In this document: positions 37,473 to 51,445 of the stretch, piece after piece
Layout of the letters: every line of letters begins with the position of its first letter
Position numbering within the stretch: position 1 is the stretch's first letter
Source: Aquabacterium sp. NJ1
GTDB taxonomy: Bacteria; Pseudomonadota; Gammaproteobacteria; Burkholderiales; Burkholderiaceae_C
Direction of reading: 5' to 3'
NCBI RefSeq assembly: GCF_000768065.1
Contig: NZ_JRKM01000001.1
Coordinates: 3,082,001 to 3,146,000, forward strand
Length of the DNA: 64,000 nucleotides
Made by a program: the position numbers and the translations under genes
Notes under the pieces: model-generated
Databases searched by the model: none
Told to the model about the DNA's origin: nothing
Seen by the model: the letters and a program-made list of their open reading frames with translations, nothing else

Positions 37473-40223
37473 ATGAGCAGGATTGATATGGGGCGTGCAG
37501 GTGTGCGTTCTATGGGTAAAACAGCTTTCAGTTTGTCGCTCCTGGCGCTGTCGATGGCGTCAGCCACAACGGCGTACGCCGCCAGTATTGACAACGGCAA
37601 GCTGCTGTACAACGACGACACTCGGACCTTCTGGAATGACTCCTGCGCGAGCTGCCACAACGCCAACCCCGCCCGCAATGTGAGCTTCATTCTCAATGGT
37701 GCCAACAACCCCGGTGCGATCCAGACGGCCATCGACAACAACGTGGGCGGCATGGGGGAGTTCAAGGGGAAGTTCACGTCCTCGGAAGTGGCGGACATGG
37801 CCGCTTATCTGGCGACCTGTAACGCCACGACCAGAACGTGCACCACGCCAGCGCCCGCGGCACAGATCGCCATGGCACCGGCTTCCGTCACATTTGCTTC
37901 CACGGCGCTGACGACATCGAGCACGGCACAGACGCTGACCGTCAGCAATGCCGGCGCCGCGCCCCTGACGCTGACAGGCATCACCTTGGCGGGCAGCAAT
38001 CCAGGTGACTTCACCAAGGGCGGGACCTGCTCCACCGCCACCGCCGTGCCCGCAGGCGGCAGCTGTACGGTGACGGTCGGCTTCACGCCAACCGCGACTG
38101 GCACGCGCAGTGCCAGCCTGTCGCTCACCTCGGCAGTCGGCAACGTCTCATCCACCTTGTCGGGCACCGGCGCCCCCGCCCCCGCGCCCTCTGCGAGCGT
38201 ATCCACGAAGAACCTGTCCTTCGGATCCATCGTGGTTGGCGCGTCTGCCGCATCGCAGTCTGTGACGGTCTCCAATGGCGGTACGGCCAATCTGTCGTTC
38301 AGCGCCATCGCCACGGGCACGTCCGAGTTCCCGATCACCGGTGGAACCTGCACCACAGCCGCCACCGTGGCGCCGGGTGCGAGCTGTACCGTCGGTATCG
38401 GCTTCAAGCCCACGGCGGCCGGCGCACGCAGCGGCAGCCTGACCATCACCAACAACGGCTCGGGCTCGCCCTTGGCCGTGGCCCTGTCGGGTACCGGTAT
38501 CGCGGCCAACCCGGTGGCGCAGGTCTCCCCTGGCAGCCTGTCCTTCAGTCAGACCATCGGCGTGGCCAGCGCTGCGCAAACCGTCGCGGTCAGCAACACC
38601 GGCACAGCCGCGCTGACACTGTCGTCCATCAACCTGAGTGGTGCGGCCGCCGCCGACTACCAGATTGACCCGACTTCGACGTGCGCCAACGGCGGGACCG
38701 TCGCCGTCAACAACAGCTGCAACGTCAAGCTCGTGTTCAAGCCTTCGGCAACGGGTTCGCGTGCGGCCACCCTGAACGTCGCCCACAACGCGACGAACAG
38801 CCCCAGCATGGTGGCCCTCAACGGGATCGGCAATGCCGCCCCCCAAGGGACCCTGACGCTGAATCAGTCCAGCATGACCTTTGCGTCGACCGCCATCGGT
38901 GGCACCAGCCAGCAGGCCGTGACCCTGGGCAACAACGGTGCCGCGCCGCTGACCCTGTCATCGATGAGCATCACGGGCGCCAATGGCGCGGACTTCGTTG
39001 TGGGCGGCGACTGCGCCACCGGTGCGTCCTTGGCTGTGGGCAGCAACTGTACGGCGAAGGTGACCTTCTCCCCTGCCGCCGTGGGTACGCGTACTGGAAC
39101 CTTGACCATCAACACCAGCGGCTCGTCGAACCCGACGGCCACCCTGGCACTGAGTGGCACGGCCGTCGCAGCGCCTGCCCCGCTGGTCAGCGTGACGCCG
39201 GGTCAGCTCGATCTGGGCAGCGTGACCGTGGGCCAGACCTCGGCCGCCAAGGCGCTTGCCATCAAGAACACGGGCAATGCCGCGTTGAGCGTCTCGTCGA
39301 TTGCCACCACGCCGAGCAGCTTTGCGCAAACCAATGACTGCGGGGCCTCTCTGGCTGCGGGTGCATCCTGCACGGTGAACACCACCTTCTCCGCCGCATC
39401 GGCGGGCGCCGCAAGCGGCACGCTGACGATTGTCAGCAACGCTGCAGGTTCGCCCACCAGGATCGGCCTGTCCGCGCAAGGTGTGGCTGTGGTCTTGCCT
39501 GTGCTGTCATGGCAGTCCTCGGCGACCGGCTTGAGCTTCGCGGATACCAATGTGGGTTCCGTCGCATCGACTCAAACGCTGGTTTTGAGCAATGCAGGGC
39601 CGGGCAATGCCACGTTGACACAGATTCAGAAGTCCGGTGCCAATGCGGATGACTTTACGATCACGGGTTCGACGTGTGCCAACGGTACAAGCCTGACCGC
39701 AGGTGCAAGCTGTTCTGTTGGCGTGGCCTTCCAGCCCGCTGCAGCAGGCGCTCGTACCGCGTCCCTGGCCGTGCTCGGCAATGCAACAGGACCTGGTGCG
39801 ATTGCGCTGTCGGGAACCGGGGTGGCACCAGCCGTGCCGGCCATGACGGTGGCGCCATTGGCCATCAACCTGATCCCTGCCAAGACTGGTCTCTTCATGC
39901 AGCCGCAGGTGTTTACCGTGTCCAACACAGGTTCGGGCCAACTGAAGGTGACGACCTTGGCTGCCAGCCTGCCTGTGATGCTGCTGTCTCGTCAGGTGCC
40001 GGAAGGTGGTACGTGTGACCGTGTGCCGTTCACGCTCAACGCTGGTCAGTCTTGCACGATGAAGGTGACATCGCTCGTCATGTCCTCCACCTTGAACAGC
40101 AAGATCACCGTTGTCAGCAACGCCAGCGCGACGCCTGTGGTGGTGCCTGTCACCAGCTCTCCTCGCCCCCCCAAGGCTGCGTGCCCGAGCCTGCTGGCTT
40201 TCCTGTCGCACCGCTGCGACTGA
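37473..40223 (+). CDS. Secreted c-type cytochrome with seven choice-of-anchor-D (ASH/Hydin-like) repeats
   Basis: A 916-residue exported protein. A signal peptide ends near TTAYAA (residue 37). A small cytochrome c domain follows (about 38-125) with heme motif CASCH (58-62) and a likely axial Met in GGMGEF. The rest is seven Ig-like repeats of about 100 residues, each with a pattern such as TVSNAGAAPLTLTGI, then a Cys pair (GGTC...GGSCTVTVGF) and a LSGTG end. The C-terminus (KAACPSLLAFLSHRCD) has no sorting tail. GAAGGA lies seven bases before the ATG. Paralogous in its heme domain to the next gene. It is probably periplasmic or surface-exposed and takes part in electron transfer. Confidence 0.85.
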   Translation: MSRIDMGRAGVRSMGKTAFSLSLLALSMASATTAYAASIDNGKLLYNDDTRTFWNDSCASCHNANPARNVSFILNGANNPGAIQTAIDNNVGGMGEFKGKFTSSEVADMAAYLATCNATTRTCTTPAPAAQIAMAPASVTFASTALTTSSTAQTLTVSNAGAAPLTLTGITLAGSNPGDFTKGGTCSTATAVPAGGSCTVTVGFTPTATGTRSASLSLTSAVGNVSSTLSGTGAPAPAPSASVSTKNLSFGSIVVGASAASQSVTVSNGGTANLSFSAIATGTSEFPITGGTCTTAATVAPGASCTVGIGFKPTAAGARSGSLTITNNGSGSPLAVALSGTGIAANPVAQVSPGSLSFSQTIGVASAAQTVAVSNTGTAALTLSSINLSGAAAADYQIDPTSTCANGGTVAVNNSCNVKLVFKPSATGSRAATLNVAHNATNSPSMVALNGIGNAAPQGTLTLNQSSMTFASTAIGGTSQQAVTLGNNGAAPLTLSSMSITGANGADFVVGGDCATGASLAVGSNCTAKVTFSPAAVGTRTGTLTINTSGSSNPTATLALSGTAVAAPAPLVSVTPGQLDLGSVTVGQTSAAKALAIKNTGNAALSVSSIATTPSSFAQTNDCGASLAAGASCTVNTTFSAASAGAASGTLTIVSNAAGSPTRIGLSAQGVAVVLPVLSWQSSATGLSFADTNVGSVASTQTLVLSNAGPGNATLTQIQKSGANADDFTITGSTCANGTSLTAGASCSVGVAFQPAAAGARTASLAVLGNATGPGAIALSGTGVAPAVPAMTVAPLAINLIPAKTGLFMQPQVFTVSNTGSGQLKVTTLAASLPVMLLSRQVPEGGTCDRVPFTLNAGQSCTMKVTSLVMSSTLNSKITVVSNASATPVVVPVTSSPRPPKAACPSLLAFLSHRCD

Positions 40224-40316
40224 TCGAGTGAGCTGAGCCGATTGAGCCGGGTTGCGTGTCGGACACGTGGCCTGGTTCACCGGCAGGCTCAGCCAATTCG
40301 GCGGCATTTGAAATCA

Positions 40317-50069: not shown

Positions 50070-51011
50070 ATGCATAGCAAGGTTTTGATATTGGGCTCCG
50101 GGCCCGCTGGATATACGGCGGCGATTTACGCCGCGAGGGCAAATCTGGCGCCAACCTTGGTGACCGGGTTGGCGCAAGGCGGGCAGTTGATGACGACCAC
50201 GGAGGTCGACAACTGGCCCGCTGATGTGCTGGGTGTACAAGGCCCGGAATTGATGCAGCGCTTTGAGGCGCATGCTGCTCGGTTCAACACGAACATGGTG
50301 TTTGATCACATCCATGAGGCGGATCTGTCTCGTCGCCCGTTCGTGCTCAAAGGTGACTCGGGCGTCTATACCGCTGATGCACTGATCGTTGCGACGGGCG
50401 CTTCTGCCAATTACCTGGGGTTGCCGTCGGAGGCTGCTTTCATGGGGCGGGGGGTCAGCGGTTGCGCCACATGCGACGGCTTCTTCTACAAGGGGCAGGA
50501 GGTGTGTGTGGTGGGCGGGGGCAACACGGCAGTGGAGGAGGCCCTTTACCTCAGCAACATCGCCAGCAAGGTGCACTTGATTCATCGGCGCGACTCCTTC
50601 AGGGCCGAGGCCATCATGGTCGACAGGCTGCTCGCCAAAGTGGCCGAGGGGCGCGTGGCGTTGCACCTCTTCATGCAATTGGATGAGGTGCTGGGTGACG
50701 CTGGCGGCGTCACGGGTGTGCGGATGCGCCATGTGGTGGATGGTCACCTTCAGGCCTTGTCGCTCACGGGGTGTTTCATCGCCATTGGCCATCGGCCCAA
50801 CACCGATATTTTCCGTGGGCAGCTGGAAATGCGTGATGGCTACATCCTGACCCAAGGCGGTGGGCAAGGCTTCGCCACCATGACCAGCATCCCCGGCGTT
50901 TTTGCCGCGGGTGATGTTCAGGACCATGTTTATCGCCAGGCCATCACCAGTGCGGCGTCGGGTTGCATGGCCGCCTTGGATGCGCAGCGCTACCTGGAGC
51001 AAGGTGCGTGA
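50070..51011 (+). CDS. trxB: Thioredoxin reductase (TrxB-like)
   Basis: A 313-residue flavoprotein with FAD motif [18 protein letters not shown], the [20 protein letters not shown] segment, the redox-active CATCDG, NADPH motif [16 protein letters not shown] with HRRDSFRAE, and the FAD-binding end [20 protein letters not shown]. All key residues are present. It reduces thioredoxin with NADPH in the cytoplasm, which is the electron source for DsbD. A 4-bp GTGA overlap with the next gene ties it to the CPBP protease. This may be a second TrxB dedicated to the cluster, or the only one; the window cannot tell. Confidence 0.93.
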
Positions 51012-51445
51012 GCGACAGTGCCTGGCGTGCCTGGCTGGGGGATCCGCTCTTCGTGGCCGCGCTGATGCTGGCGATCCCTGTGTGGGTGCTGGCATCGTGG
51101 CTTCACATCCATGCGGCGCCTGCTGGCAGTGATGCGGGTGTGTTGCTCTCGGTTGCCGTCATTCAGCCAGTGTGTGAAGAGCTGCTGTTCAGAGGGGTGA
51201 TTCAGGGCGCTTTGAGGCGACGCTTCCCTGGCTTCCATATGGGGAGCCTGAGCGGGGCCAATGTCATCACGGCGCTGCTGTTTGCGGCCGCTCATCTGTG
51301 GCGCCAGCCACCTTGGCTGGCGGGGGCCGTTCTGGTGCCCGGCTTGATCTATGGCTGTCAACGTGATCGCTGGGGTTCCATCTGGCCGGGGGCGCTTCTT
51401 CACGTTTGCCACAACGCAGGTCTGCTTGCGACGGGCTATCTGTAG
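51008..51445 (+). CDS. Small CPBP-family glutamic intramembrane protease, MrtJ-like (JDVT-CTERM system)
   Basis: A 145-residue polytopic membrane protein. It starts [20 protein letters not shown] and has the three CPBP/ABI motifs: EELLFRG (EExxxR), FAAAHLW (FxxxH) and HVCHN (HxxxN). It is short for the family, as expected for the dedicated protease of the JDVT-CTERM sorting system. The GTG at 51008 overlaps the trxB stop. The likely substrate is the cytochrome at 40317-41480, whose tail fits the signal. The naming as MrtJ rests on remembered family features and gene context, not on a search. Confidence 0.75.

Follow-up and report, generated by a model that had tools for sequence, protein, structure and literature searches.

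A recurring operon joins JDVT-CTERM sorting to a DsbD-type flavinylation cluster and may deliver electrons to a surface cytochrome

Two separately described gene systems bear on the locus reported here. Flavinylation clusters of the DsbD type encode the thiol:disulfide interchange protein DsbD, the transferase ApbE, which attaches flavin mononucleotide (FMN) to proteins, a DUF3570 protein with SGA[ST] motifs, a thioredoxin-like protein and a DUF4266 protein ending in CXC; in the available part of the paper that describes them, the function of the DUF3570/DUF4266 clusters is called uncertain (PMC8238504). MrtJ/JDVT-CTERM pairs consist of a CPBP protease, MrtJ, and a protein with a JDVT-CTERM sorting tail, and are presented as a two-gene neighbourhood in the available part of PMC11980579, which cites a 2024 paper for them. 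Both halves are therefore already known, each on its own. In a stretch of 64,000 nucleotides from Aquabacterium sp. NJ1 (contig NZ_JRKM01000001.1, positions 3,082,001 to 3,146,000 of the forward strand), hereafter called the window, they stand together between positions 37,473 and 51,445. Every component of the DsbD-type cluster is found there (DsbD by PF02683, ApbE, DUF3570 with an [S/T]GA[S/T] motif, DUF4266 with a C-terminal CXC, and a thioredoxin-like protein, TlpA), and the sorting pair, of which the genome holds one protease and one tagged protein over the curated cut-offs, is built into the redox operon.

Comparative genomics shows MrtJ, the JDVT cytochrome, TlpA, DUF4266, DUF3570, ApbE and DsbD, with the thioredoxin reductase TrxB in some species, as one recurring gene set. 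The usual order in relatives is MrtJ, a mono-heme cytochrome/ASH protein with the JDVT-CTERM tail, TlpA, DUF4266, DUF3570, ApbE and DsbD, followed in a minority by TrxB. This was read from 80 named loci, the best 80 of 437 relatives, picked by DUF3570 with an alignment of 16 proteins as the query; as 10 of these 16 come from JDVT-linked loci, the JDVT fraction among the 80 is biased upward, and the family survey described below gives the fairer count. MrtJ, JDVT and operon genes were scored in the named loci with profiles made for this analysis and with thresholds of their own; many of the contigs are cut, several loci are closely related to one another, and some lie on the same contigs as the G-series genomes of the surveys. 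Many of the loci belong to Burkholderiales, and the taxa include Duganella, Massilia, Janthinobacterium, Undibacterium, Rugamonas, Rhizobacter and Ideonella; the operon is also present in Stagnimonas, a member of the Gammaproteobacteria in the NCBI taxonomy, and compact copies occur in Duganella, Massilia, Janthinobacterium and Stagnimonas. DUF4266 was found in all 80 loci, TlpA in 75, ApbE in 71, DsbD in 54, MrtJ in 41 and TrxB, downstream of DsbD, in 7. The JDVT tail was found in 48 by profile and in 50 when two tails read by eye (L147 and L181) are included. All 42 MrtJ matches, in 41 loci, lie on the operon strand and none is downstream of DUF3570, where the window has its MrtJ. DUF6502-like genes, and in part DUF5666-like ones, recur next to DUF3570 operons or MrtJ loci (L104, L105, L109, L116 and L127; Pfam on representatives).

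Judged by gene content, the tail and the protease come and go together at the DUF3570 operon. Among the 57 named loci with at least 6 kb of upstream and at least 4.5 kb of downstream sequence (full-flank loci), 35 have both, two have the tail only (L165 and L190), none has MrtJ only and the remaining 20 have neither (Fisher p 2e-13, with kinship ignored and one tail, that of L147, read by eye). In 47 of these loci a mono-heme cytochrome domain is close by: all 37 tailed loci have it, in the very protein that bears the tail, and so do 10 of the 20 tail-less ones. When the tail is mapped on a 42-row DUF3570 tree, which holds 41 of the full-flank loci and the window, 8 changes are required, compared with 13.8 when labels are shuffled; branches with good support force 5 of the 8, which makes at least five gains or losses of the tail. 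On a larger tree of 64 rows, cut contigs included, JDVT plus MrtJ needs 13 changes, 10 of them forced. The window DUF3570 has a long branch (0.82) and groups with Stagnimonas at 99/93 in the 64-row tree; no starred set includes it in the 42-row tree. Of 48 named loci in which both features were scored, six (L179, L203, L204, L211, L222 and L223) have the JDVT cytochrome and TlpA in a single open frame and the other 42 keep them separate; a seventh joined frame is found in genome G264 (L092:9584-12364). Internal start codons are present in the joined frames, so that a true polyprotein is putative. The JDVT tail is in these frames an internal segment ahead of a second hydrophobic stretch. The original prediction, an earlier reading of the window by itself, had proposed a single system, and the recurring operon, the joint presence or absence of tail and protease and the seven shared frames support it well.

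Two samples of 399 genomes each place the sorting pair in a wider setting. In the order-wide sample, with MrtJ counted at E 1e-18, the protease occurs in 17 genomes (16 of them over the curated cut-off), and JDVT tails were found in 16 of these 17 against none of nine same-family genomes without MrtJ. In the family survey, counted at E 1e-17, MrtJ occurs in 39 genomes (36 over the curated cut-off, the linked genome G471 falling just under it), DUF3570 in 84 and both in 23 (Fisher p 4.5e-8, kinship again ignored). Twelve genomes have MrtJ within 15 kb of DUF3570 on one contig. Regions were taken in this survey from part of the 84 DUF3570 genomes, and draft contigs conceal some linkage. JDVT tails are present in 37 of the 39 MrtJ genomes and in 6 of 76 family genomes where MrtJ was not found (61 with DUF3570, 15 without). 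Within about 1.5 kb of DUF3570 such a tail is seen in 17 of the 84 DUF3570 genomes, namely the 12 linked ones and G493, G783, G784, G506 and G737. Of 14 MrtJ genomes from outside the family, 13 are without DUF3570 and the other (G016) has it unlinked. As MrtJ is mostly without DUF3570 there, and as some operons have cytochrome tails free of cysteine (see below), the MrtJ/JDVT pair is, on this genomic evidence, a portable device that the DUF3570 operon uses often, not always. Neither MrtJ, nor DUF3570, nor a JDVT tail was found in five genomes of the same genus, and both horizontal arrival and repeated loss are possible histories of the window operon.

The original prediction had named two secreted cytochromes with ASH domains, one with a JDVT-CTERM-like tail. 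The tail, on cytochrome 2, is confirmed by NF033191 (29.1 bits, cut-off 27) and is the single one over the cut-off in the 5.02-Mb genome. The ASH domains stand for cytochrome 1, which has seven choice-of-anchor D stretches (NF012200), a PF13442 match of 30 bits (cut-off 27) and the heme motif CASCH; no JDVT tail was found on it in any of the three frames inspected. In cytochrome 2, with the heme motif CSGCH, the ASH-like match (34.8 against 45 bits) and the cytochrome match (21.3 against 27 bits) both fall below their cut-offs, and the protein lines up with the heme and Met residues of its relatives in the family alignment. Its AlphaFold2 model is poor, with a predicted local distance difference test score (pLDDT) of 59.3, so no inference is drawn from it. 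One heme motif is seen in each window cytochrome and in 50 of 52 long cytochrome frames of relatives, the other two having none; neither window protein is thus the multiheme cytochrome of a porin-multiheme conduit. The 57 cytochrome-domain matches in named loci carry CX2CH (37), CX4CH (19) or CX3CH (1), and a methionine shared by 90% or more of the 30 domains aligned is likely the second heme ligand. The domain profile matches cytochrome c6-type domains, and Cbp2D-type domains (7b21, cbp2D) weakly and in part.

The cysteine of the JDVT tail is invariant in a chosen set of nine aligned proteins. In the DUF3570 operons of four loci (L122, L136, L140 and L143) the cytochrome ends instead in a hydrophobic, arginine-containing tail without cysteine, in which no JDVT match was found; it is possibly another sorting tag. 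GlyGly-CTERM was considered for this tail; of four examples run against NCBIfam, two matched it at no better than E 0.18 to 0.23, so the tail is left unnamed. The window protease scores 86.8 bits with NF033192 (cut-off 75) and is the sole MrtJ over the cut-off in its genome. CPBP proteases are marked by the motifs EExxxR, FxxxH and HxxxN, and its translation has the fitting EELLFR, FAAAH and HVCHN. The genome also has a gene for the type II secretin GspD. The cytochrome may be placed at the cell surface by this protease of its own.

The AlphaFold2 model of the window DUF3570 protein is a 16-strand barrel (pLDDT 86.5). The 50 PDB matches listed by Foldseek are outer-membrane barrels, for example FadL, OmpG and the PelB channel, with modest query-normalised TM-scores of 0.35 to 0.55 among the matches listed, which point to a barrel and to no particular family. 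The SGAS motif is at the end of strand 3 and the start of the loop 95-106. Loops on the motif side of the model total 87 residues against 24 on the opposite side, and positions conserved at 3.5 bits or more number 62 of 149 in the outer quarter with its loops, compared with 17 of 80 in the inner quarter with its turns. Outer-membrane barrels have periplasmic termini, so strand counting from the N-terminus, together with the loop lengths, presumably puts the motif on the extracellular side. Of 64 aligned DUF3570 proteins, 45 have at least two SGA[ST] motifs, 18, like the window protein, have one and a single protein has none; where there are two, an alignment places both in the loop that bears the window motif. 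The DUF3570 protein of Chlorobium luteolum is flavinylated in E. coli by its own ApbE, the modification being abolished only when both sites are changed, and is found mainly in the pellet according to the available part of the paper (PMC8238504), a location that fits a barrel. The original prediction had assigned the flavin to a lipoprotein. The published substrate is DUF3570 (same source, same part), the lipoprotein-like DUF4266 having a C-terminal CXC instead, and DUF3570 is accordingly the predicted flavin carrier of the window cluster. The DUF4266 C-terminus, GGGGCGCN (42267-42290), is nearly invariant to the last residue in 79 of the 80 named loci. No hydrophobic leader or signal peptide is recognisable in the window ApbE. 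In a crude scan of N-termini with guessed starts, a hydropathy of at least 2.0 was reached by 1 of 72 ApbE, 48 of 76 TlpA and 52 of 81 DUF3570 proteins, and of at least 1.6 by 10, 67 and 62 of the same proteins, respectively; ApbE possibly modifies DUF3570 before export. A second DUF3570 type without SGA[ST] stands next to DUF4266 and TlpA with no ApbE adjacent (L094:8217-9431 and L096:5551-6825).

On balance we lean, with moderate confidence, towards the cluster being one electron-export module that ends in a heme protein processed by a dedicated protease for the cell surface. Electrons would flow from NADPH through TrxB to thioredoxin, and DsbD would carry them over the inner membrane to TlpA, which would pass them on to the C-terminal CXC of the DUF4266 lipoprotein. 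From there they would reach the FMN that ApbE attaches to the DUF3570 barrel, and the flavin would reduce the heme of the JDVT cytochrome. MrtJ would cleave this cytochrome at the JDVT cysteine, a lipid at this residue would anchor it outside, and the final acceptor may vary by lineage. A bolder version, drawn from the barrel model and rather improbable, would make DUF3570 a flavin conduit across the outer membrane, in which an extracellular loop bears the FMN. The DUF4266 tail, rich in glycine and with Cys-Gly-Cys-Asn at its end, would extend through the barrel like a swinging arm and bring electrons from TlpA in the periplasm, and the flavin would hand them to the mono-heme cytochrome, released and anchored at the surface by MrtJ. 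Were it true, there would be a thiol-to-flavin-to-heme electron route over the outer membrane that is powered by NADPH through thioredoxin and uses no multiheme cytochromes.

Several observations weigh against an electron-export module. ApbE is leaderless, by a crude heuristic, in the window and in nearly all relatives, which is odd for an enzyme that should act on an exported barrel. Tail and protease are both missing from 20 of the 57 full-flank loci, and a cytochrome domain from 10. The window copy is divergent and rearranged, with a tail-less cytochrome 1, one flavinylation motif where most relatives have two, and MrtJ behind TrxB. MrtJ and DUF3570 are on separate contigs or far apart in 11 genomes of the family survey; in two of these (G493 and G784) the contigs seem to end inside or next to the cytochrome, and contig breaks may explain the lack of linkage. 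The genomes that own L122 and L143 (G717 and G775) have their MrtJ elsewhere, and their operon cytochromes have the tail without cysteine. DUF3570 is absent from 13 of the 17 MrtJ genomes of the order-wide sample. The original prediction had taken a usual separation of the sorting pair from the ApbE operon as the sign of chance adjacency and had proposed a count within 15 kb. In the family survey, 12 of the 39 MrtJ genomes have DUF3570 at that distance, and 27 do not have it within 15 kb on the same contig. The separation thus holds only in part: counted from the operon the outcome differs, as MrtJ is adjacent in 35 of the 37 full-flank loci with a tailed operon cytochrome.

The joint occurrence could still be chance or synteny inertia between a MrtJ/JDVT pair and a DsbD flavinylation cluster, both of the ordinary kind and each independent of the other in many genomes, DUF3570 operons without JDVT included. 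The order and strand kept by dozens of loci, the way tail and protease are present or absent together (35 of 57 with both against none with MrtJ only), the shared cytochrome/TlpA frames and the repeated gains or losses on the tree make this extremely improbable, and we reject it. A different view of the same genes takes DsbD and TlpA as a thiol-maintenance module, which would hold in the reduced state the cysteines that receive heme in the apocytochrome, the one in the JDVT tail and those of the DUF4266 CXC, ready for heme and lipid attachment, with the flavin barrel as a separate activity that uses a common reductant. ResA and DsbE are apocytochrome reductants, and their models give the best TlpA matches, although TlpA fails the curated cut-offs of both (96.6 against 170 bits for ResA, 65.4 against 123 bits for CcmG/DsbE); the frames shared by the cytochrome and TlpA in seven loci and the invariant JDVT cysteine of the nine proteins are also in line with such a role. 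Since it leaves ApbE and DUF3570 in the operon unexplained, and since four loci (L173, L186, L195 and L205) keep TlpA and DsbD although no cytochrome domain turned up in them, we regard the thiol-maintenance reading as unlikely.

The remaining alternatives concern what the electrons are for. One possibility is the reduction of copper or iron, either on the cell surface or in the periplasm, to take the metal up or to detoxify it; the cytochrome would then be the reductase or the sink. The operon is adjoined by a sensor pair, called CusRS-like in the original prediction and rightly so, as the kinase (466 bits, NF007345 cut-off 423) and the regulator (348 bits, TIGR01387 cut-off 279) are of the copper type, and 25 DUF3570 clusters with the iron transporter VIT1 are mentioned in the available part of PMC8238504. 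Against this, in 52 G-series regions (41 with DUF3570; the scan did not extend to the 80 named loci) the best matches to the window kinase reach 95 bits and those to the regulator 119 bits, these last in MrtJ loci that lack DUF3570, and no metal transporter was noticed next to the window operon, where no systematic search was made. Because the scan of relatives did not find the pair next to the operon, we do not count it in the system, of which the original prediction had made it a part, and a function in metal reduction seems quite unlikely. The cytochrome could also supply copper-dependent lytic polysaccharide monooxygenases (LPMOs) or similar extracellular enzymes in oxidative polysaccharide degradation. 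In G264 the gene before MrtJ encodes an AA10 LPMO with a JDVT tail (L092:17129-18106, about 0.8 kb from the MrtJ match), and GH5, GH6 or Cip1-like genes are in or beside the four DUF3570 operons with the cysteine-free cytochrome tail. The available parts of two papers point in different directions: LPMOs are reported to be reduced by a c-type cytochrome domain of Cbp2D from Cellvibrio (PMC8981238), whereas the X183 cytochromes of Teredinibacter, where a Cip1-like X122 domain and an X183 cytochrome domain are combined in one protein, failed to do so (PMC10916295). A one-sequence LPMO search of the 80 named loci gave none at E 1e-8, GH6/Cip1 was found in 1 of the 80, and LPMO_10 (PF03067) has no match in the window's genome, so the acceptor in the window must be something other than an LPMO. 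LPMO reduction is rejected as the general answer, and a role in polysaccharide oxidation seems quite unlikely.

The genes of the window are listed in the table below. The overlapped operon of TlpA, DUF4266, DUF3570, ApbE and DsbD that the original prediction had outlined is real by profile matches and coordinates: adjacent genes from TlpA to DsbD (41527-46321) overlap or almost do so. Equally real is the overlap of four bases (51008-51011) that it had noted between TrxB and a CPBP protease, which is MrtJ by NF033192. The regions taken from the G-series genomes show the compact order from MrtJ to DsbD as well, and among them TrxB follows DsbD directly in L106, L121 and L126 and is partial in L118; the window's genome has a further TrxB elsewhere. 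With the PEP-CTERM protein at 48704-49996, which we do not accept as a member of the system, two kinds of C-terminal sorting tag lie close together in the window.

Table. Features of the window, with positions counted from its first nucleotide
Feature	Position	Strand	Basis
Cytochrome 1: exported mono-heme c-type, repeated ASH/choice-of-anchor D domains, without JDVT tail	37473..40223	+	NF012200, PF13442
Cytochrome 2: exported mono-heme c-type, C-terminal JDVT-CTERM tail (GGC...DP...hydrophobic...RRP)	40317..41480	+	NF033191
TlpA-type periplasmic thioredoxin-like protein, WCGPC	41527..42045	+	PF00578/PF08534
DUF4266 small lipoprotein-like protein, C-terminus GGGGCGCN	42042..42293	+	PF14086
DUF3570, predicted 16-strand outer-membrane beta-barrel, one SGAS flavinylation motif (residues 92-95)	42268..43410	+	PF12094, AlphaFold2, PDB matches
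ApbE FAD:protein FMN transferase, without recognisable signal peptide	43413..44336	+	PF02424 241 bits
DsbD thiol:disulfide interchange protein	44333..46321	+	NF001419 557.8 bits; PF02683 307.6 bits
Copper/silver-type sensor kinase, neighbour	46307..47740	-	NF007345, TIGR01386 over cut-off
Heavy-metal response regulator, neighbour	47730..48437	-	TIGR01387 over cut-off
PEP-CTERM protein with HAF repeat, between sensor pair and TrxB	48704-49996	opposite to operon	
Second thioredoxin reductase TrxB, CATC	50070..51011	+	TIGR01292 366.8 bits
MrtJ, CPBP glutamic intramembrane protease of the JDVT-CTERM system	51008..51445 (GTG start 51008)	+	NF033192

The original prediction had remarked that these parts were undescribed as one system, and our literature searches likewise found no paper that joins JDVT/MrtJ sorting with DUF3570/DUF4266/ApbE clusters; most subscription papers and the supplements of PMC8238504 were outside their scope, and an earlier notice is possible. 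The text of PMC8238504 contains none of the terms JDVT-CTERM, MrtJ and 'beta-barrel' and has one unrelated 'outer membrane'. If the electron-export module holds, the DUF3570/DUF4266 flavinylation clusters have the mono-heme cytochrome as a likely partner and probably act at the outer membrane and cell surface, the JDVT-CTERM sorting pair gains a metabolic context, and a way is suggested for Gram-negative cells to send cytosolic reducing power outside without multiheme cytochromes.

Compared with the DsbD-type clusters, which the available part of PMC8238504 describes without a sorting-tailed cytochrome and without TrxB, the window cluster has both. Delivery to the surface has its model in MYXO-CTERM proteins and the myxosortase MrtX, which, in the available part of PMC11980579, share a Cys-containing C-terminal tag, a CPBP protease and type II secretion; there the proteins are others, the organisms are Myxococcota, and the words redox and cytochrome are absent from the text. 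Cbp2D, Cbp2E and their kin in Cellvibrio and Teredinibacter have the same mono-heme c-type domain in a large extracellular protein (the profile match to 7b21 being weak and partial), but they carry carbohydrate-binding domains instead of ASH domains, and a flavinylated barrel, DsbD and a JDVT tail are not described for them in the available parts of the papers; ApbE is not mentioned in PMC10916295. Porin-cytochrome conduits of the MtrCAB type combine an outer-membrane barrel with a surface cytochrome and move electrons outward along a multiheme wire. The window system would have the barrel and the surface cytochrome in common with them, but would use one heme, a covalent flavin and a thiol-based donor in the inner membrane.

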